From: Bacteroidota bacterium | Lineage (GTDB): Bacteria; Bacteroidota; Bacteroidia; UKL13-3 | DNA length: 34,396 nucleotides | Direction of reading: 5' to 3' | Assembly (NCBI GenBank): GCA_947492885.1 | Contig: CANLPK010000020.1 | Location: forward strand, 1-34,396 | In this document: in pieces, positions 10,036 to 34,396 of the stretch | How positions within the stretch are numbered: the stretch's first letter is position 1 | Layout of the letters: each line of letters opens with the position of its first letter | Program-made: the position numbers and the translations under genes | Notes under the pieces: generated by a model | Told to the model about the DNA's origin: nothing | What the model saw: only the letters and a program-made list of their open reading frames with translations | Databases searched by the model: none

Positions 10036-10040
10036 CATCA

Positions 10041-10147
10041 CTTATCCAGAAAGACGGAGGGAATAGGCCCTATGATGTCTTGGCAACCCAACTTGGTGGG
10101 TGCTAATTCCTATCTCAGGTTCGCACTGAACCATGGGAGAAGATAAG
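10041..10147 (+). ncRNA. SAM-I (S-box) riboswitch aptamer
   Basis: The element has the S-box hallmarks in order. Helix P1 is CTTATC paired with GATAAG at the end. P2 is AGAC/GTCT with the internal GGAGGGA and GGCCCTATGAT kink-turn and pseudoknot region, followed by the conserved TTGGCAACC. P3 is ACCCA/TGGGT, followed by the invariant GTGCTAATTCC-like junction. P4 is CTC-GGTTC paired with GAACC-GGGAG. It precedes split metH and metF, the expected targets for repression by S-adenosylmethionine. This is seen by direct comparison with the known consensus; a covariance-model search was not possible here. Confidence 0.95.
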
Positions 10148-10166
10148 GTGAATTATCATGATTCTC
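10137..10166 (+). promoter_or_regulatory. Alternative hairpin competing with riboswitch P1/P4
   Basis: GAGAAGATAA (10137-10146) can pair with TTATC (10153-10157) and, across a four-base bulge, TTCTC (10162-10166). The left arm is the 3' strand of P1 and part of P4, so this hairpin and the SAM-bound aptamer are mutually exclusive. It could be the switch to the expression platform, but this is inference from pairing alone. Confidence 0.4.
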
Positions 10167-10205
10167 TTGTAACTTTTTGGGTGAGTAATAAATAAATCTG
10201 TGAGC

Positions 10206-10229
10206 AATTGTTCATGGCTTGAAACAATT
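10206..10229 (+). promoter_or_regulatory. Hairpin in the metH leader just before the start codon
   Basis: AATTGTT (10206-10212) and AACAATT (10223-10229) form a seven-base stem with a ten-base loop, ending 17 bases before the first metH ATG. There is no T-run after it, so it is not a standard terminator; a role in translation or RNA stability is possible. Confidence 0.4.
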
Positions 10230-10246
10230 AATTTATACTCAACAAA

Positions 10247-11272
10247 ATGACTACCGTTACAGCCTCCCCAAAATCAGCACTGGAAGCCGCATTAGAGAAA
10301 AGAATTCTCATACTTGACGGCGCGATGGGCACCATGATTCAGCAATATAAATTGGAAGAAGAAGATTATCGTGGAGAGCGTTTTAAGAACTGGCATAAAG
10401 ATATCAAAGGCAATAACGATTTGCTTTGTTTGACTCAGCCACATATCATTGAAGCCATTCATAAAGAATATTTAGAAGCCGGTGCCGATATCATTGAGAC
10501 CAATACTTTCAATTGCCAGGTAGTATCGCTGGAAGATTACGATATGCAAAGTTTGGCAGCCGAATTAAATTTGGCAGCAGCACAAATTGCACGCAAAGCC
10601 GCCGATGAGTACACCCTAAAAAACCCCGCCAAACCTCGCTTTGTAGCAGGTGCTATTGGCCCAATGAATCGTACCCTAAGTTTGTCGCCCGATGTAAACC
10701 GACCAGAGTTTCGTACCGTGAATTTTGATCAGGTGAAGAATGCCTATAAGGAACAAGTTACTGCCTTGATTCAAGGTAATGTTGATTTGCTTTTAATTGA
10801 AACTATTTTCGATACCTTGAATGCCAAGGCTGCCATTTATGCATGCCTTGAAGTATTTGATGAATTGGGTAAAAAACTTCCCATCTCAATTTCAGGAACC
10901 ATCACCGATGCCAGTGGACGCACCCTTTCGGGCCAAACCATTGAAGCCTTTTATACCTCAGTAAAACATGCCAACCCCATTAGTGTTGGAATTAATTGTG
11001 CGTTAGGGGCGCATGCCATGCGACCTTATTTGGAATCGCTAGCCACCAATGCCGATTGTTATGTGAGCTGTTACCCCAATGCAGGATTGCCCAACGAGTT
11101 TGGGGAGTACGATGAAACACCGCATATCATGTGTGAGCAAATTGAAGACTTCTTACAAGCAGGCTTCATCAATATTGTTGGGGGATGTTGTGGCACCACC
11201 CCAGCGCATATCAAAGAGATTGCCGAACATGCATCGAAATATTCACCACGTACATTTAGTAAAGTCGCATAA
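10247..11272 (+). CDS. metH: Methionine synthase, homocysteine-binding half of split MetH
   Basis: A 341-residue homocysteine S-methyltransferase (betaine-homocysteine methyltransferase fold) corresponding to the first module of cobalamin-dependent methionine synthase. Motifs are [11 protein letters not shown] at the start, [26 protein letters not shown], and the zinc-binding cysteines in GINCALGA and [11 protein letters not shown]. It ends just after that last motif, at the natural domain boundary. It works with the next gene product, which holds the folate, B12 and reactivation domains. The two proteins together total 1228 residues, essentially the length of single-chain E. coli MetH. Transcription is from the promoter at 10004-10035 under the SAM-I riboswitch. 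Confidence 0.93.
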
Positions 11273-11282
11273 ATAATATTTT

Positions 11283-11308
11283 TTATTAGAAGCCATTGTT
11301 TCTAATAA
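11283..11308 (+). promoter_or_regulatory. Intercistronic hairpin between the metH halves
   Basis: TTATTAGAA and TTCTAATAA form a perfect nine-base stem around an eight-base loop, ending 12 bases before the second metH ATG. The T-rich run is before rather than after the stem, so termination on this strand is unlikely; it may tune expression of the second half. Confidence 0.45.
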
Positions 11309-11320
11309 CAAGAAAACAAG

Positions 11321-13984
11321 ATGACACAAACCCGATACCTACAACTAAGTGGCCTAGAGCCTTTAGTGATAACGCCAGAAACCAATTTTGTAAATATTGG
11401 AGAACGTACCAATATTACAGGAAGTAAGGCATTTGCCCGAATGATTTTGAGTGGCGACTTTGACAGTGCCTTGAGTGTTGCCCGCCAGCAAGTAGAGAAT
11501 GGTGCCCAGGTGATTGATATCAATATGGATGAAGGGATGCTGGATGGGGTGGCTGCCATGACGAAATTTTTAAATTTGATTGCCTCCGAACCTGATATTT
11601 CGAGAGTTCCCGTGATGGTTGACTCATCTAAATGGGAAATAATTGAAGCGGGTTTGAAGTGCATGCAAGGTAAGGGCATAGTAAACTCCATCTCTTTAAA
11701 AGATGGTGAAGCAAAATTCATTGAGCGTGCTCGAACTATTAAGCGCTTTGGTGCAGCCACTGTGGTGATGGCCTTTGATGAAGACGGACAAGCTGATAAT
11801 TACGAAAAGAAAATTGCCATTTGTAAACGAGCCTATGATATTTTAGTTGATCAGGTAGGCTTTGCTCCTGAGGATATTATTTTCGACCCCAATATTTTAA
11901 CGGTAGCCACTGGAATCGAAGAGCATAATAATTATGCTGTTGATTTTGTGAATGCCACCAAATGGATTAAAGAAAATTTGCCATATGCGAAAGTATCAGG
12001 TGGTGTAAGTAATATCTCTTTTTCATTTAGAGGTAACGATACCGTGCGTGAAGCCATGCATGCCGCCTTCTTATATAAAGCCATTCAAAACGGCATGGAT
12101 ATGGGTATTGTAAATGCGGGCATGATTGAAGTGTACGATGAGATACCCAAAGAGTTATTGAACTTGGTTGAAGATGTGCTTTGGAATCTCAGACCCGATG
12201 CTACCGAACGATTGGTAACCTTTGCCGAAACCATCAAAGCCAAAGGAAAGGTAGCGGTGGTTGATGAAGCATGGCGAAGCACCAGTGTGGAAGAACGATT
12301 GAAACATGCACTGGTAAAAGGAATTACCGATTTTATAGATATTGATACTGAAGAAGCACGATTACAAAGTGATCGCCCATTGGATGTAATTGAAGGGCCT
12401 TTGATGGCTGGTATGAGTGTGGTGGGTGATTTATTTGGAGCAGGAAAAATGTTCTTGCCACAAGTAGTGAAGAGTGCTCGGGTGATGAAAAAAGCAGTGG
12501 CTGTATTGACTCCATATATTGAAGCACAAAAACAAGAAGGCGCCAGTAGTTTTGCAGGAAGAATATTGATGGCCACCGTAAAAGGCGATGTTCATGATAT
12601 TGGAAAAAATATTGTGGGCGTTGTTTTGGGTTGTAATAATTATGAAATTATTGATATGGGGGTGATGGTTTCTGCTGATAAAATTTTAGCGAAGGCCAAG
12701 GAAGTCAATGCCGATATCATTGGCTTGAGTGGGTTAATTACACCGAGTTTGGATGAGATGGTACATGTAGCCAAAGAGATGCAACGACTCGGATTTAAAA
12801 TTCCATTACTCATTGGAGGTGCCACCACTTCTCGAATTCATGCCGCAGTGAAAGTGGATCCGCATTATGAAGGAAGCGTGGTTCATGTACTTGATGCTTC
12901 GAGAAGTGTGCCTGTGGCAAGTAGTTTACTGGGCAAGGAATCGGGCCCTGAATTTCATGCTGCTATCAAAGCCGAATATGCCAAGATGCGTGAAGATCAT
13001 AAGAACAGAAGAGATACCAAAACCTTTGTTCCTTATGAAAAAGCGAAGGAACAACGCATCAATATTGATTGGAGCTCCTCTCCTATTCATGTGCCCAATA
13101 AACCAGGGATTACCGTATTCGAAGATTTTGATTTGAATAAACTGGTGGAGGTTATTGACTGGACACCTTTCTTCAATACCTGGGAGATGTATGGAAAATA
13201 CCCAGCCATACTAACCGATGAAAAGGTTGGAGTAGAAGCAAGCAAATTATACCATGATGCCAAGGCCCTTTTGAAACGAGCTATTGATGAAAAAATATTA
13301 CATGCAAAAGCAGTAATAGGGTTGTTCGAAGCCAATGCCGATGGGGATGATATTCGATTGAATAAAAATGGAAGTGAAATTGTGACCCATCATTTACGTC
13401 AGCAAAATGAGAAGTCGAACGGACAATCATATTATTCATTAAGCGATTTCGTTGCACCAATATCAAGTGGAAGAAAAGATTATATAGGAGCCTTTGCAGT
13501 GAGTATTTTAGGAGCGGATGAAGAAGCCAAAAAATTCGAGGCCGATCACGATGACTATAATAGTATCATGATAAAAGCGGTGGCCGACCGATTGGCAGAA
13601 GCTCTTGCAGAAAAAATGCATCAATTGGTGAGAACAGATTATTGGGGTTATACCCAAGATGAAGTATTGAGTAATGAAGATTTGATTCATGAAAAATATC
13701 AGGGAATTCGTCCGGCACCTGGATATCCTGCCTGTCCCGACCATACGGAGAAAGAAACCTTATGGAAACTTTTGGATGTGAAAGAAAATATTGGCACCAT
13801 CATCACCGAGAGCTATGCGATGTGGCCTGCAAGCAGTGTAAGTGGCTGGTATTTCTCTCATCAGGAAAGTAAATATTTTGGTTTGGGTAAAATTAGCAAA
13901 GACCAAGTAACTCATTATGCCAAACGCAAAGGGCGCAGTATTGAAGAGATGGAGCGCTGGTTGAGTCCGAATTTAAATTATTAA
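11321..13984 (+). CDS. metH: Methionine synthase, folate/cobalamin/SAM-reactivation half of split MetH
   Basis: An 887-residue protein carrying the remaining MetH modules. Residues about 1-330 are the pterin-binding barrel ([36 protein letters not shown]). Residues about 340-545 are the B12-binding cap and Rossmann domains, with the cobalt ligand His425 in [12 protein letters not shown] and the [13 protein letters not shown] and [13 protein letters not shown] blocks. From about 560 to the end is the SAM-dependent reactivation domain, with [12 protein letters not shown] near 797 and [14 protein letters not shown] after it. It transfers the methyl of methyltetrahydrofolate to cob(I)alamin and on to homocysteine bound by the upstream subunit. 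All key motifs are intact. It is 48 bases after the first half and 48 bases before metF. Confidence 0.95.
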
Positions 13985-13985
13985 A

Positions 13986-14012
13986 AATTACATTCATTTC
14001 ATCATTGTAATT
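13986..14012 (+). promoter_or_regulatory. Hairpin between metH and metF
   Basis: AATTACA and TGTAATT form a seven-base stem around a 13-base loop, ending 20 bases before the metF ATG. It is weak and lacks a T-run, so metF is probably still in the operon. Confidence 0.3.
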
Positions 14013-14032
14013 CATCGAACAAAAATCTTAAA

Positions 14033-14986
14033 ATGCATATTACCGAACATATAAAAAGAGCCCAGGGAAAGACCTTGTTTTCAATAGAAATTTTACCCCC
14101 ATTAAAAGGAAGAGGTATCGAAAGTGTATTTAATGGTATTGATCCATTGATGGATTTCAAGCCTGCTTTTATTGATGTAACTTATCATCGGGAAGAGTTC
14201 ATTATTAAGAAAATGCCGGATGGTACAGAGGATAAAATTTCCACCAAGAAGCGACCAGGCACCGTTGCTATTTGTGCTGCCATTATGAACAAGTATAAGG
14301 TGGATACGGTGCCCCATTTAATTTGCGGAGGTTTTAGCAAGGAGGAAACTGAGAATGCCTTGATTGATTTAAATTTCTTGGGGATTGATAATGTATTGGT
14401 ATTACGTGGCGACAATGCAAAGAATGAATCGCAATTCATACCTGATAAAAATGGCAATAAGAATGCCTTAGAGCTCTTAGAGCAAATTCGAAATTTGAAC
14501 AAGGGCAAGTATCTTGATGAGGAAATAATTGAAGCAACAGCCTCTAATTTTTGTTGTGGTGTTGCGGGTTATCCAGAGAAACATTATGAGGCAGTTAGTT
14601 TAAATACTGATATGGAATTTTTGAAGCGAAAAGTTGCTGCAGGTGCCGATTTTATTGTAACACAAATGTTTTTCGACAATTCAAAGTATTTTGATTTTGT
14701 AAAACGATGTGCCGATGAAGGAATCAATATTCCAATTATACCAGGAATTAAACCATTGACCACGCGTAAGCAACTTACTGGGTTAGCTAAGATATTCAGC
14801 ATATCGATGCCTAATGATTTAGTAACACAAGTTGAAAAATCGGAAGATCATGCAGTGAAACAAATAGGACTGGACTGGTGTGTGCAGCAATGCAAAGAGC
14901 TTAAAGCTGCAGGCGTTCCTGTTCTGCATTTTTATACGATGGGTGTGAGTGAGGCTACGAAGTATATTGCGCATCGGGTGTTTTGA
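14033..14986 (+). CDS. metF: 5,10-methylenetetrahydrofolate reductase MetF
   Basis: A 317-residue FAD-dependent reductase that makes methyltetrahydrofolate, the methyl donor used by the MetH proteins just upstream. Visible MTHFR blocks are FSIEILPPLKGRG at the N-terminus (with the catalytic glutamate), DVTYHRE, VPHLICGGFSKEE, NVLVLRGDNAKNE, CCGVAGYPEKHYEA, VAAGADFIVTQMFFDN and IIPGIKPLTTRKQL. Length is normal for the bacterial enzyme. It is the last gene of the SAM-riboswitch operon and is followed within 30 bases by a terminator hairpin. Confidence 0.95.
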   Translation: MHITEHIKRAQGKTLFSIEILPPLKGRGIESVFNGIDPLMDFKPAFIDVTYHREEFIIKKMPDGTEDKISTKKRPGTVAICAAIMNKYKVDTVPHLICGGFSKEETENALIDLNFLGIDNVLVLRGDNAKNESQFIPDKNGNKNALELLEQIRNLNKGKYLDEEIIEATASNFCCGVAGYPEKHYEAVSLNTDMEFLKRKVAAGADFIVTQMFFDNSKYFDFVKRCADEGINIPIIPGIKPLTTRKQLTGLAKIFSISMPNDLVTQVEKSEDHAVKQIGLDWCVQQCKELKAAGVPVLHFYTMGVSEATKYIAHRVF

Positions 14987-29111: not shown

Positions 29112-32100
29112 TTATCTTACCAGTTGTAAGGTTCCATCATACTCGTATTGCTTTGCATCCATTCCTATAATATTTATTTTATAGATATAGACATCCATCG
29201 GTAAGGGTATATTCTGATAATTCCCATCCCATCCATGGCTTGCATAATTATTTGAAAAATATACTCGATCACCCCAGCGATTATAAATTGAAACTTCGAA
29301 GCTTTTTATATTCGAAGCCACAACCATAAACTTTTCATTATTCGCTACCCCATCGGGTGAGAAGGCATTTGGAATAAATACCTTAATATCTGGATAAACT
29401 CTTACCATACGTTTTACTTCACTGGCACATTCATCCTTTGTAATCTGTTGCAAAGTAATTATGTGAAACCCACTATCTGCTGGATACGTATGTGTAACTT
29501 GGGTACCAGAAGCATCTGGAATATTATAATTTACGGGCTCATCATACCACCAATTAATTTCTTTGATGCTCTCATTTGCATTTTTATTGAATGAAGTAAA
29601 TGTAAATTTAGGAGCGATATTGGTGGTATATCCAGGCGAATCGGGAGTAAATTCAAACCAAGGCTGACTCATCTCAAAGACCTTGATTGAATCGAGATAT
29701 TGAATGGTTGAACTACAATCGCCCAAAGGGTTGGTGATAGTACAACTCACTTTATATATTCCAGGTTTCTCATAAAAATGAATGGGTGCATTTGAATTCG
29801 ATTTATTATTTGAGCCACTTGTTGCATCACCAAATTCCCAGTGGTAAATTAAATTGGAAGGAAGCTTTTGTGAGTTTTCAATAGTGCATGCAAACTTGGT
29901 AGCGAATGGCGCACAACCTGCTTTATTGGTTGTGGTAATTTTAAAAACAGGTTTGGCATTAATAAGCGCGGTGGCTTTTGCAGTGGCTTTCGGGCAATCG
30001 TTATTAGCGATATCGTTGCTTTCCCATAAGAGTTGAATTTCTCCCTTGCCCAATTCTATGGGGCTAGGCATATAGTAAGCGATGGGATTATTATCAAGAG
30101 TGCCTCGTATAAATGTTCCTGTGTAATTTATCCAATGCCCAGTATAGGGTGCATTGATAGTATATTCAAGTTTGAAACCACTATCAGGATTCATGGCTAC
30201 CCACTCGCAAAGGCTACGAATTGGCTTAATGGTAACCTTGGGTTTGGCTTCGATATAAAAGCTATCGATGACAATGCCATTACATCCATACTGCATTTGA
30301 TACTTTAGCATGATATAATGCATGCCCATTTTAAAATTACTCGGCACAAAATAATTATTGCTATGGAGCTTTTGGTCAATAAAATAAGCTGTTTCGGTAA
30401 TCAAATTATTATTAGCGCTATTGTAAATTTTGAAATATTGCTTGGATGTATCGCATTCGCAATAGCGTCTTATTGGATTACTCAAAATCACGGTTGGATT
30501 GGGATACACTTTAAAGCTGGTTGAATCGGAACTCGTCATTCCAAGAGAATTAAATTTATATACCGCTTTAATTTGTAAAGGAGAACTTGAACCGGTAGCA
30601 AAAACTAATTTACTTGGATCGAAAATATTACCACTAATGGGTGCTCCATTGATAAACCATTGCCCGCGAGTGCTTGAAATATATTTTGGATTTAGGCTGG
30701 TTCGAATATCCAAATTAATTGGATTGGAGATGGCACATAAATCGGCAATCGTATCTAAAACAATATTGGGCACCAGGAAAATTTGTATTGGATAATGCGC
30801 TGAAAGAGGCCGCGCATCCTTGATAGAAACAAAGGCAGTATTGGTTTCCACGGGTGTATTAAAATCGAAATAGATAAACGCTTTACTATTAATTTTACTA
30901 CCGCTTACAATATTTTTAAGAGGTTCTATGCTATAGGTAATAAAGCCGTGGCTATTTTTCTCATCCTTAGTACTATCCACCAGGTAAATCTTCTCAAATT
31001 CAAATCGAAGTATGATGGGATTAATTCCTACAATATTTGTTTTAAAGGCATGTGATGCCATATCAATTTTGAGGGTTTTTAAATCGAGCAATTCGGAGAG
31101 GGTATCCATTACCACAATATTGTATGCGGTATCAGATCCTGTATTTTGAAAATCGATTCGATAGTGTAATGTTTCATTGCGTTGAACAATCTTTTCTGGT
31201 CCAACGCCTGCAGGTATTACCGATATTCCGTTGGGATCGTAACTATTTACTATTTCATAGCATATCTCTTTCATGGTGAGCCCCTCAGAATATGGTGGCA
31301 AATCATTTAAATTGGTGGTATCGTGCTTTGTAGCATCCCAACTGGTTCGGGCCATGGTGCATGGATTACTATGTCCTGGATAATAAATACTTTGATTGGC
31401 TTCTAAACGATAGGTACTATTATTTGAATTGATGATGAACTCAAACTGATCCTTTTCCTTCAATTTAAATTTGCCGCTCTTGCAAAGCAAGGAGTTTTCA
31501 TAAAGACGATAATCGTTGGAATCGCTCATTAACTTACCAGTATTGGAAATCGTGAATTTTAAATAATTACTATCCTGGGCAGTGATTGTAGTTTTTATAA
31601 AACTCGAATCGTAGGCGGTATCCAATCCGAGCTCCTTGAATTTTTTATTATCGGGGGCAATCCAAAATTTGAAACATCTAAACTGACCCACAATTTCACT
31701 AATGCAATCGACAATCGTAGATATTCGAATCTTTCCATGGGTGCCAGCGCTTATTTTCCCTAGAGAAAAAATAAGTGTATCACCTTTTAAAGTATAGTTT
31801 CTATCTGCTCCTAAGAATTGTGTATTCGGTGGAAGTATCATAACAATCTCTACATTCTCGGCATCTTCTGTTCCGTTATTGGCATAATCAAAATAGCCAT
31901 AATGTGATACACAAGGGCGCATTCCCACTTCAATAAAATCAACAACTAAAATAGGCACTCGATAAAGGTTGACTGCAAAGTTTATTCCGATGGTATCTGG
32001 CTTGATGGTATCTGTTTTAATAGTGTGCGTTCCTCCAATTGGGAAAGTGTAATTTTTAAATACCGCTAAGATGGTTTCTGATAAAGCCGGTTTTATTATA

Positions 32101-33776
32101 TAGGTACCTGAATCGAGATACATAGTATATCTTCCTTGATCGTCGGTATAAGTGCCACAGAAGAAAGGAACGGTGGTGATTAGGGTATTAGAAATTGCGA
32201 TATCATTTTTTGTTTTGATTCCAGTAGAATCCATCGATTCGAAGAGGCTACCGCTCACTGCAATTCCTTTTATAATTTTTCTTGTATCGATGGTATCGTA
32301 ATATAAAGTGATACAGGCACTCGCTTTAATACTAATTTTAAAAATATAAATTCCTGTATCGGGCAAGTAAAAAGTATAATTAATTAAATCCTGATTACCT
32401 ATAGTTTTTAAAACAGCATTAGATGAAGGCCTTCCCAATTTCACAGGCTGGTATATATACACGATTCCAAAATGGCTCTTACTGGCACTGTCTTTATTGA
32501 TGATGGCAACATATTTCCCTTCTTTAATTTTTAGAAATTTCCTTGTAGCTATTGGGTTATCAGCCACCAAAATACTATAGCTTATGGTAGTTCCACCAAC
32601 CAAAGGGCAATGGTTATCGCTCGCGCTGGCAGTAAAATAATGCGGAAGCGAGCTGGCATCGTTGGTTGTAGGTGTCCAACATAAAGTGCCAGTAGCACGT
32701 TTCACAGTTCCATTATTAGCATTCCAGTTGGCGCCGGGTATTCCTTCATTCCATATTATTTTAGTAGAATCGGTGAGGTCCTGGTCATTGGTATTGATGG
32801 TGATACATATTTCCTGCCCGGCACAAGCCTCGTAGGCAAAGGGGCCCGACAGACTTGGTAATTTATTATTGCAATTTTGAACAATTGAGAATTGCATGTC
32901 TCTTGCCGTTTTTCCAATCACCTTATATTTACCTTGAGCATTCTTACGCCATTCGGTAACCATCACTTTCATCACTGTATTTTGAACCTGCATCGGTCGG
33001 AAACACATTTCACAAGTGCGTGGATCAAGGTTAAAGCCAGTTGGTGGATTGGCATTCGGATTGGGATTATTACCACCTAAACATGTTAGCGGATAGTTAT
33101 AACTCCATGGCGAACTATATCCACCTCCAAGCGGAGGAGCCATAGCGAATGAAAGCGAATCACCATCGGCATCATACACCCCTTGGTTATAACAAACATC
33201 TTGTCCAGCGCATTTTATTGCGATGGGTGGATTTCTAAATTCAGGTCCGTTATCATAGGGCGCAATACAGTGGTTCAACCATGATTCGGTATAAAAATTT
33301 GCATCGGCATAACCAGTAGTTATATTACTGTTCCTGCAACACATATCGGTTCTTATTTTATACCAGCAACAATTGGCGAAGGTATCTCCGAGATAAATTT
33401 TATAGATCCATATATGTCGCTCAATACCCATTGGAATCTGTGCGGTAGATTGTCCGGAACCGCCCGCTGAAGGACAAATTTTTTGAGCTGTAGGGCATAT
33501 AGGGGTGATATCTTCTACGGTATGGGATATGGCGCTACCATAATGCACCACATTAGAAGAAGCACAAGAATCGCTTGTGATGCTGAAGTTGGGGTATGAA
33601 ATATTATCGGCACCATCGGTACATCGGCGATAGGCAGTGATGGTAATCAGGAAGGTGTCGTTGCCAGCCGACTTCCATTGAATATCCATTCCAAGTAAAT
33701 GATTGGCATGAGTTTTTTGTGTAAAACCCAATAAAATCAATACGAATAAGCTGAGGTTAGGTATTATTTTTCTCAT
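29112..33776 (-). CDS. Giant mosaic surface protein with PKD domain and T9SS type B sorting domain
   Basis: A 1554-residue exported protein. Signal peptide 1-24 (cleavage after THA). Residues 25-310 form a cysteine-rich domain typical of Bacteroidota surface proteins (MDIQWKSAGNDTFLITITAY, several CC pairs). Around 320-405 is an Ig-like domain, around 500-570 a carboxypeptidase-regulatory-like domain (DDQGRYTMYLDSGTYIIKP), and around 610-700 a DUF11-like domain. Around 845-985 is a domain opening SYDPNG and containing YRIDFQNTGSDTAYNIVV. A PKD domain near 1285-1365 has WEFGDATSG. The last about 90 residues (PNAFSPDG, SIYNRWGDRVY, GWDG, DVYIYKINI) are the gliding-motility-associated type B sorting domain. 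A role in adhesion is inferred only. The gene has its own promoter-like sequence upstream. Confidence 0.88.
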   Translation of the reverse strand: MRKIIPNLSLFVLILLGFTQKTHANHLLGMDIQWKSAGNDTFLITITAYRRCTDGADNISYPNFSITSDSCASSNVVHYGSAISHTVEDITPICPTAQKICPSAGGSGQSTAQIPMGIERHIWIYKIYLGDTFANCCWYKIRTDMCCRNSNITTGYADANFYTESWLNHCIAPYDNGPEFRNPPIAIKCAGQDVCYNQGVYDADGDSLSFAMAPPLGGGYSSPWSYNYPLTCLGGNNPNPNANPPTGFNLDPRTCEMCFRPMQVQNTVMKVMVTEWRKNAQGKYKVIGKTARDMQFSIVQNCNNKLPSLSGPFAYEACAGQEICITINTNDQDLTDSTKIIWNEGIPGANWNANNGTVKRATGTLCWTPTTNDASSLPHYFTASASDNHCPLVGGTTISYSILVADNPIATRKFLKIKEGKYVAIINKDSASKSHFGIVYIYQPVKLGRPSSNAVLKTIGNQDLINYTFYLPDTGIYIFKISIKASACITLYYDTIDTRKIIKGIAVSGSLFESMDSTGIKTKNDIAISNTLITTVPFFCGTYTDDQGRYTMYLDSGTYIIKPALSETILAVFKNYTFPIGGTHTIKTDTIKPDTIGINFAVNLYRVPILVVDFIEVGMRPCVSHYGYFDYANNGTEDAENVEIVMILPPNTQFLGADRNYTLKGDTLIFSLGKISAGTHGKIRISTIVDCISEIVGQFRCFKFWIAPDNKKFKELGLDTAYDSSFIKTTITAQDSNYLKFTISNTGKLMSDSNDYRLYENSLLCKSGKFKLKEKDQFEFIINSNNSTYRLEANQSIYYPGHSNPCTMARTSWDATKHDTTNLNDLPPYSEGLTMKEICYEIVNSYDPNGISVIPAGVGPEKIVQRNETLHYRIDFQNTGSDTAYNIVVMDTLSELLDLKTLKIDMASHAFKTNIVGINPIILRFEFEKIYLVDSTKDEKNSHGFITYSIEPLKNIVSGSKINSKAFIYFDFNTPVETNTAFVSIKDARPLSAHYPIQIFLVPNIVLDTIADLCAISNPINLDIRTSLNPKYISSTRGQWFINGAPISGNIFDPSKLVFATGSSSPLQIKAVYKFNSLGMTSSDSTSFKVYPNPTVILSNPIRRYCECDTSKQYFKIYNSANNNLITETAYFIDQKLHSNNYFVPSNFKMGMHYIMLKYQMQYGCNGIVIDSFYIEAKPKVTIKPIRSLCEWVAMNPDSGFKLEYTINAPYTGHWINYTGTFIRGTLDNNPIAYYMPSPIELGKGEIQLLWESNDIANNDCPKATAKATALINAKPVFKITTTNKAGCAPFATKFACTIENSQKLPSNLIYHWEFGDATSGSNNKSNSNAPIHFYEKPGIYKVSCTITNPLGDCSSTIQYLDSIKVFEMSQPWFEFTPDSPGYTTNIAPKFTFTSFNKNANESIKEINWWYDEPVNYNIPDASGTQVTHTYPADSGFHIITLQQITKDECASEVKRMVRVYPDIKVFIPNAFSPDGVANNEKFMVVASNIKSFEVSIYNRWGDRVYFSNNYASHGWDGNYQNIPLPMDVYIYKINIIGMDAKQYEYDGTLQLVR

Positions 33777-33827
33777 GATAAAATGGGATTACAATTACCA
33801 TGAGTACCAAACAATGGAATAAGGTTG

Positions 33828-33856
33828 CAAAAATAGTTATGTGTACGAGCTCCAAA
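33828..33856 (-). promoter_or_regulatory. Promoter of the giant T9SS protein gene
   Basis: On the minus strand TTTG, 17 bases and a perfect TATTTTTG; spacing is two bases shorter than ideal. It lies about 50 bases before the ATG. Confidence 0.48.
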
Positions 33857-33915: not shown

Positions 33916-33989
33916 GGCGGGGTAGCTCAGTTGGTTAGAGCACGGGATTCATAACCCCGAGGTCGGCAGTTCGAGACTGCTCCCCGCTA
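33916..33989 (+). tRNA. tRNA-Met (CAT anticodon)
   Basis: A complete cloverleaf can be drawn by hand: acceptor GGCGGGG with CCCCGCT (G1-U72 wobble), D arm GCTC/GAGC with loop AGTTGGTTA, anticodon loop TTCATAA with CAT, variable loop AGGTC, T arm GGCAG/CTGCT with loop TTCGAGA, discriminator A. CCA is not encoded. The anticodon stem lacks three GC pairs next to the loop and the 1-72 position pairs as a wobble, so it looks like an elongator rather than initiator tRNA; a tRNA-Ile2 (lysidine) cannot be fully excluded. Position 31-39 is an A-C mismatch. An integrase gene begins 76 bases after it. Confidence 0.93.
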
Positions 33990-34000
33990 CAATACAGTCC

Positions 34001-34025
34001 AAAACCCTTATTTAATAAGGGTTTT
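34001..34025 (+). terminator. Hairpin after tRNA-Met, probable terminator
   Basis: AAAACCCTTATT and AATAAGGGTTTT are 12-base arms with a single central T, 11 bases after the tRNA. The right arm ends in TTTT, compatible with intrinsic termination. It may also be part of an attachment region. Confidence 0.65.
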
Positions 34026-34035
34026 GTCGGTTAAA

Positions 34036-34055
34036 GGGGACAAAAGGGGACAAAA
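34036..34055 (+). repeat. Tandem direct repeat GGGGACAAAA x2 before the integrase gene
   Basis: Two exact copies of the 10-base unit lie between the tRNA and the integrase ATG, ending 10 bases before the ATG. Position between a tRNA and an integrase suggests a recombinase arm-type or attachment-site repeat, but this is inference. Confidence 0.6.
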
Positions 34056-34065
34056 TACAAGGCTG

Positions 34066-34396
34066 ATGCTACCCAACTTTAAAGACATAGAAATTTATTT
34101 TGGGTGCCGCAGAGTGGCAGGAAAATCCGATTTCCATCAGCCCAAAGACATCCGAAAAAAATGGTTCATCAGGTACAATTTCTTGGTTGAAGGCGAATAC
34201 CAACGCTTTAAGGTAAAGGGCGGAATTAACAAATTTCATTCCATTGAAACACGTTTTCAAGAGGCAAAACTTTTGAAGGATAGCATGGAGTTTTTGCTCA
34301 CCAATGGCTATACTCCTATTGGAAATGTAATACAGAGTCAGGAAATGGCCTCTAGCGATCCTGCTGAGCTTGTACGTCAGATGCCAATCATTGATG
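34066..34396 (+). CDS. Tyrosine recombinase/integrase, N-terminal part (cut by window edge)
   Basis: The frame from the ATG at 34066 is open for 110 codons to the window edge. The start MLPNFKDIEIYFGCRRVAGK is followed by a basic segment with KKWFIRYNFLVEGEYQRFKV, then KGGINKFHSIETRFQEAKLL and a FLLTNGYTPIGN block. This is the layout of the N-terminal arm-type DNA-binding domain of Bacteroidota phage- and island-type tyrosine integrases (WFIxYxF, then GINK, then LLxNGYxP). The catalytic domain with its R-H-R-Y residues is outside the window. Its location 76 bases after a tRNA-Met gene, in the same direction, is the usual arrangement for an integrase inserted next to its attachment site. The family call is good; activity is unknown. 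Confidence 0.75.
   Translation, partial: MLPNFKDIEIYFGCRRVAGKSDFHQPKDIRKKWFIRYNFLVEGEYQRFKVKGGINKFHSIETRFQEAKLLKDSMEFLLTNGYTPIGNVIQSQEMASSDPAELVRQMPIID

Follow-up and report, generated by a model that had tools for sequence, protein, structure and literature searches.

Left end of a probable integrative element at a tRNA-Met gene of a Bacteroidota bacterium

The tRNA-Met end of the contig

The window, the whole stretch of 34,396 nucleotides that was analysed, is the entire contig C20 of a genome assembly (G000) comprising 183 contigs and 3.08 Mb, with a completeness of 89%. At its right end a complete tRNA-Met gene, a hairpin, a short tandem repeat and the N-terminal part of a tyrosine integrase follow one another on one strand (Table 1), a layout described in the sequence-only reading and confirmed here with ARAGORN, Rfam, the repeats and the open frame. 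The last ~400 bases of the contig form the left edge of what is very probably an integrated element. The hairpin arms (34000-34012 and 34014-34026) fold at -14.1 kcal/mol, and the two copies of GGGGACAAAA (34036-34045 and 34046-34055) stand in direct tandem; a perfect tandem of this size appeared in one of 300 shuffles of the 140-base stretch. The integrase frame may begin at TTG 34024 or, more likely, at ATG 34066, which lies 75 bases past the tRNA on the same strand, and it runs to the contig end with no stop across 124 codons. No promoter was detected before the integrase in a scan whose models do not cover those of Bacteroidota.

Table 1. Features at the right end of the window
Feature	Position	Strand	Evidence
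tRNA-Met (CAT), complete; proposed insertion target, kept whole	33916..33990	+	ARAGORN; Rfam tRNA, 61.7 bits
Probable attL core (GA)GACTGCTCCCCGCTAC, 16-18 bp, equal to the tRNA 3' end	33973..33990	+	Same bases found alone at the G002:C64 and G001:C135 junctions
Left-end hairpin, 13-bp perfect inverted repeat, which would replace the tRNA's own terminator	34000..34026	+	Only at seven element left ends among 35 genomes
GGGGACAAAA, two copies, proposed arm-type integrase sites	34036..34055	+	Repeat pairs at left and right ends
Tyrosine integrase, N-terminal part, cut at the contig end	34066..34396	+	Open frame; homology of relatives

By itself, the integrase fragment matches no family in Pfam, PHROGs or NCBIfam. 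It can be assigned to the integrases because it is 95% identical, over its own length, to a full-length homologue of 428 aa in a sister species (contig G001:C135), which matches Phage_integrase (PF00589) at 2.1e-9, above the cut-off, and a PHROG integrase family at 6.1e-30. Another copy, 85% identical, lies directly behind the same tRNA-Met in G004, where a frameshift splits the gene. At E <= 1e-30, a search across 64 genomes of the order found matches in the same genus only, and a scan of genome collections returned relatives on G001 and G004 contigs only, two same-genus contigs being public as metagenome-assembled Bacteroidetes. The catalytic R-H-R-Y residues anticipated in the sequence-only reading were sought in relatives, as the window ends short of the catalytic part. 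Four relatives retain the box I arginine (LRPKE), the histidine of the GH motif and the tyrosine (RYSK), whereas the position expected to read HxxR is occupied by YG[VL]K, that is, by YxxK. No solved structure matches the integrase in sequence. The structure model of a relative (pLDDT 39) did not reach the quality needed for a fold search; residues 1-80, modelled at a pLDDT of only about 55-60, may adopt the beta-beta-beta-alpha order of arm-binding domains.

Junctions and element ends in related genomes

Alignment of neighbourhoods from the window's genome and from same-genus genomes on the last 16 bases of the tRNA revealed four types of junction. The attL type, in which the tRNA is followed by the hairpin and then the integrase, is found in the window and in G004. 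On C164, a contig of the window's own assembly, the tRNA leads into a terminator (AAGAATTGAAAGCCGAGC...TTTTTT) and a phosphoesterase gene; C164 begins inside the tRNA and is identical to the window over exactly 69 bases, up to window position 33992, beyond which the two diverge. On G002:C64, foreign DNA is followed by an 18-bp core and a phosphoesterase flank of the C164 type, the arrangement of an attR; the two contigs are 91% identical over 300 bp past the core and unrelated upstream of it (17 of 40 bases). Lastly, foreign DNA on G001:C135 leads into a 16-bp core that is followed by a window-type left end and integrase. At this junction the right end is of the GCGAAAA type and the left end of the GGGGACAAAA type, which favours two elements lying side by side rather than a circle. 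Two further contigs, G003:C99 and G002:C12, end at the tRNA end. The search for a second tRNA 3' end, suggested from the window alone, was thus answered in part: copies of the core stand on G002:C64 and G001:C135, and the assembly lacks the right end of the window's own element.

Because no more than 16-18 bases of the tRNA would be present at an attR, C164 must be either an empty site or the flank of a second tRNA copy. It appears to be the empty site (attB) of the same tRNA, a reading favoured because G003, G004 and most genomes of the family have a single good copy of this tRNA. The comparison with an unoccupied tRNA-Met site that had been called for would thereby be provided within one assembly, where the same tRNA is joined to a different flank. 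That C164 instead represents the 3' flank of a second tRNA-Met copy, in which case the integrase locus would still be attL with no direct view of its unoccupied state here, is rather unlikely. Such a copy would agree with the two flanks past the core in G002, on C64 and C12, which have distinct terminators, and with the two tRNA copies of G016, a genome of the family; however, C164 starts inside the tRNA with an exact overlap, as a branch of the assembly graph would give, and a flank of its type serves as attR in G002.

The element ends are themselves conserved. A search for the hairpin as CAAAACCCTTA-N5-TAAGGGTTTT covered 35 genomes from 27 genera and located it in this genus alone, at seven left ends and nowhere else; each time it comes right after a tRNA-Met end or its core. 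In all seven, a repeat pair with a period of 10-11 begins 41-45 bases past the core, and at four right ends a pair with a period of 11 lies 80-114 bases from the core. Pairs of GGGACAAA accompany the window-type integrase (in the window, G001:C135, G004:C16 and G001:C69), and one is also present at the G002:C64 right end. GCGAAAA pairs accompany the elements at the other tRNA-Met (G000:C32, G003:C52 and G004:C9). Since these paired repeats of ~10 bp occur at both ends and differ with integrase type, they are proposed to be arm-type integrase sites. Across the comparative set of seven left and four right ends, the arm repeat seems to vary with the type of integrase. The earlier proposal that an integrated element occupies the DNA to the right of about 33990 is supported by the apparent empty-site contig, by the attR-type and element-element junctions and by the end structure common to seven elements.

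At the other tRNA-Met of the window's genome, contig C32 (L007, 9668-10863) holds a remnant of ~1.1 kb with the hairpin, repeat pairs and a core copy, and with no integrase. A mini-ORF at the right end that would supply the integrase start after circularisation was rejected as a general feature, as in G001 the frame is closed by a stop at the junction that carries the window-type integrase. The right end of the G003 element, which sits at tRNA-Met#2, has a mini-ORF (MELNRINSSE...) whose translation, were the two ends joined, would continue across the core and into the integrase in the same frame (L025, 14650-14764 to 9334).

A decayed remnant, with the integrase as a relic of an old insertion and no mobile DNA to its right, is likewise a minority prospect. 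Decay has precedents in the frameshifted integrase of G004 and in C32, where both element ends persist ~1 kb apart and the integrase is gone. The window fragment, in contrast, stays open over its 124 codons and shares 95% identity with a gene that is intact in another species, and the apparent empty site coexists with the insertion in the assembly. We infer that the element is still mobile in this strain.

Cargo of related elements and the nature of the insertion

No cargo of the element was found in the assembly of the window's genome, in which no other contig overlaps the last bases of the window and no contig carries the rest of the integrase or a right end of the G002 type. In the sister species, contig G001:C47 overlaps C135 by 134 identical bases, and the two contigs combine into an element of ~30 kb. 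It begins within the C-terminus of an integrase with 66% identity to the window type and extends as far as the core adjoining the window-type integrase. This island encodes a WYL regulator, an N6-methylase joined to a HATPase-like domain, HsdM, HsdS and HsdR, as well as proteins of the 8-oxoguanine and uracil DNA glycosylase families, DUF3987, a PD-(D/E)XK nuclease, DUF2779 and, as we read the sequences, probable SbcCD-like proteins. The N-terminus of a type III methyltransferase lies behind the window-type integrase of G001, and AbiEi/AbiEii stand beside a truncated integrase in the G003 and G004 elements at the other tRNA-Met (L025, 9261-14763; L026, 9285-11213). The sister-species island, ending as it does at the same core, suggests that the tRNA-Met of the window is a landing site for defence genes. 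The expectation that this edge would be the best place in the window to look for an undescribed system is not substantiated: the cargo is absent from the assembly, and that of the sister species consists mostly of known defence genes (type I R-M, AbiE).

An unusual pairing was observed on G001:C47 (L098, 14234-17957), where the WYL regulator and HsdM/HsdS are separated by an N6-methylase of 844 aa, which has a HATPase-like domain at its C-terminus, and by a protein of 400 aa that matches no family.

The element is very unlikely to be a temperate prophage. Prophages do use tRNA 3' ends, and the full-length relative matches PHROG integrase families, but the integrase has no relatives among 50,697 phage records or in IMG/VR, and no recognised structural phage genes occur among the G001 cargo genes examined. 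That the tRNA and the integrase were brought together by a chimeric assembly and are not neighbours in the cell is scarcely credible, even though the contig stops 400 bases on and others break at this tRNA (C164, G003:C99 and G002:C12), as the same order of tRNA, hairpin, repeats and integrase in a 58-kb contig of a separate genome (G004:C16) contradicts it.

Given the four junction types, the genus-only hairpin, the repeat pairs, the full-length integrase homologues and the variable cargo in G001, it is highly probable that a tyrosine integrase inserted an integrative element into the 3' end of tRNA-Met and that the attL of this element forms the right end of the window. The edge itself is genuine and has good support, yet it is of an ordinary insertion type with a standard mechanism, and the window shows no undescribed system. 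A mobile region is thereby delimited to within a few bases, which shows what DNA to seek in deeper assemblies of the lineage. It is also quite possible, if still tentative, that these elements form a genus-specific family that targets both tRNA-Met genes, shares the hairpin and arm repeats that track the integrase, uses a YxxK integrase and stacks in tandem to give rise to defence islands.

Mechanism, known systems and neighbouring loci

A tyrosine integrase that targets a tRNA recombines the tRNA 3' end with an identical core on a circle, by which the target is split, the tRNA is rebuilt and a copy of the core comes to lie at the far side. Here the strands would be exchanged inside the final 16-18 bases of the tRNA, which would thus stay whole, and a copy of its end would mark the far end of the element. 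The element would bring its hairpin in place of the host terminator of the tRNA and, past the hairpin, a pair of 10-bp arm sites and then the integrase gene. With 10 bases between the proposed arm sites and ATG 34066, bound integrase would cover its own promoter region and, by analogy with KplE1 IntS, may repress its own gene.

In E. coli, integrases that follow a tRNA on the same strand, for which KplE1 IntS at argW is the model, are negatively autoregulated (PMC2951348). The window shares the 'STI' shape of that system, a tRNA followed by a same-strand integrase with the attachment region between them, overlapping the expected integrase promoter (PMC2951348), and the closeness of the repeats to the start codon would fit its autoregulatory layout. 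Unlike the predicted autoregulated tRNA-integrase pairs, whose mean spacing is about 210-230 bases (PMC2951348), the window has a shorter spacing of 75 bases, and no phage genes are seen. The integrase resembles those of the IntCTnDOT type from ICEs and mobilizable elements of Bacteroidetes in its phylum, in being a tyrosine recombinase and in a likely N-terminal arm-binding region (PMC8138268); it differs in that its relatives have the box I arginine and YxxK for HxxR, and in its tRNA target. The Arm-DNA-bind Pfam domain was not found in full-length relatives, for which Pfam gives only PF00589, while an unrelated integrase of G004, on C27, does show PF17293 and PF13102. Tycheposons of freshwater Methylophilaceae also form islands that begin at tRNA-Met(CAT) with a tyrosine recombinase (PMC10872708), although the window's host belongs to a different phylum.

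Several observations concern neighbouring loci. G000 and G002 were the only genomes found to have a gene for a 1554-aa T9SS-sorted protein (window 29112-33841). In the window this gene faces the tRNA from its 5' side; in G002:C12 (L084, 1-400) it faces the 3' side of a tRNA core and a second terminator. Because the two genomes agree only to about window position 33841, an inversion, a deletion or a second, inverted tRNA copy likely separates them. At the end of G004:C16 (L023, 3-323), part of a DNA polymerase B of organellar/viral type (PF03175, 1.2e-11) is abruptly joined beside the integrase, possibly as an assembly chimera. Farther to the left in the window (10039-14986), a SAM riboswitch (RF00162) precedes an apparent methionine synthase, spread over two reading frames, and a gene for methylenetetrahydrofolate reductase. 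On C164 (L006, 486-3989), an IS21-type istA/istB pair abuts the phosphoesterase gene, which is without its N-terminal half, in contrast to the 798-aa genes of G003 and G004.
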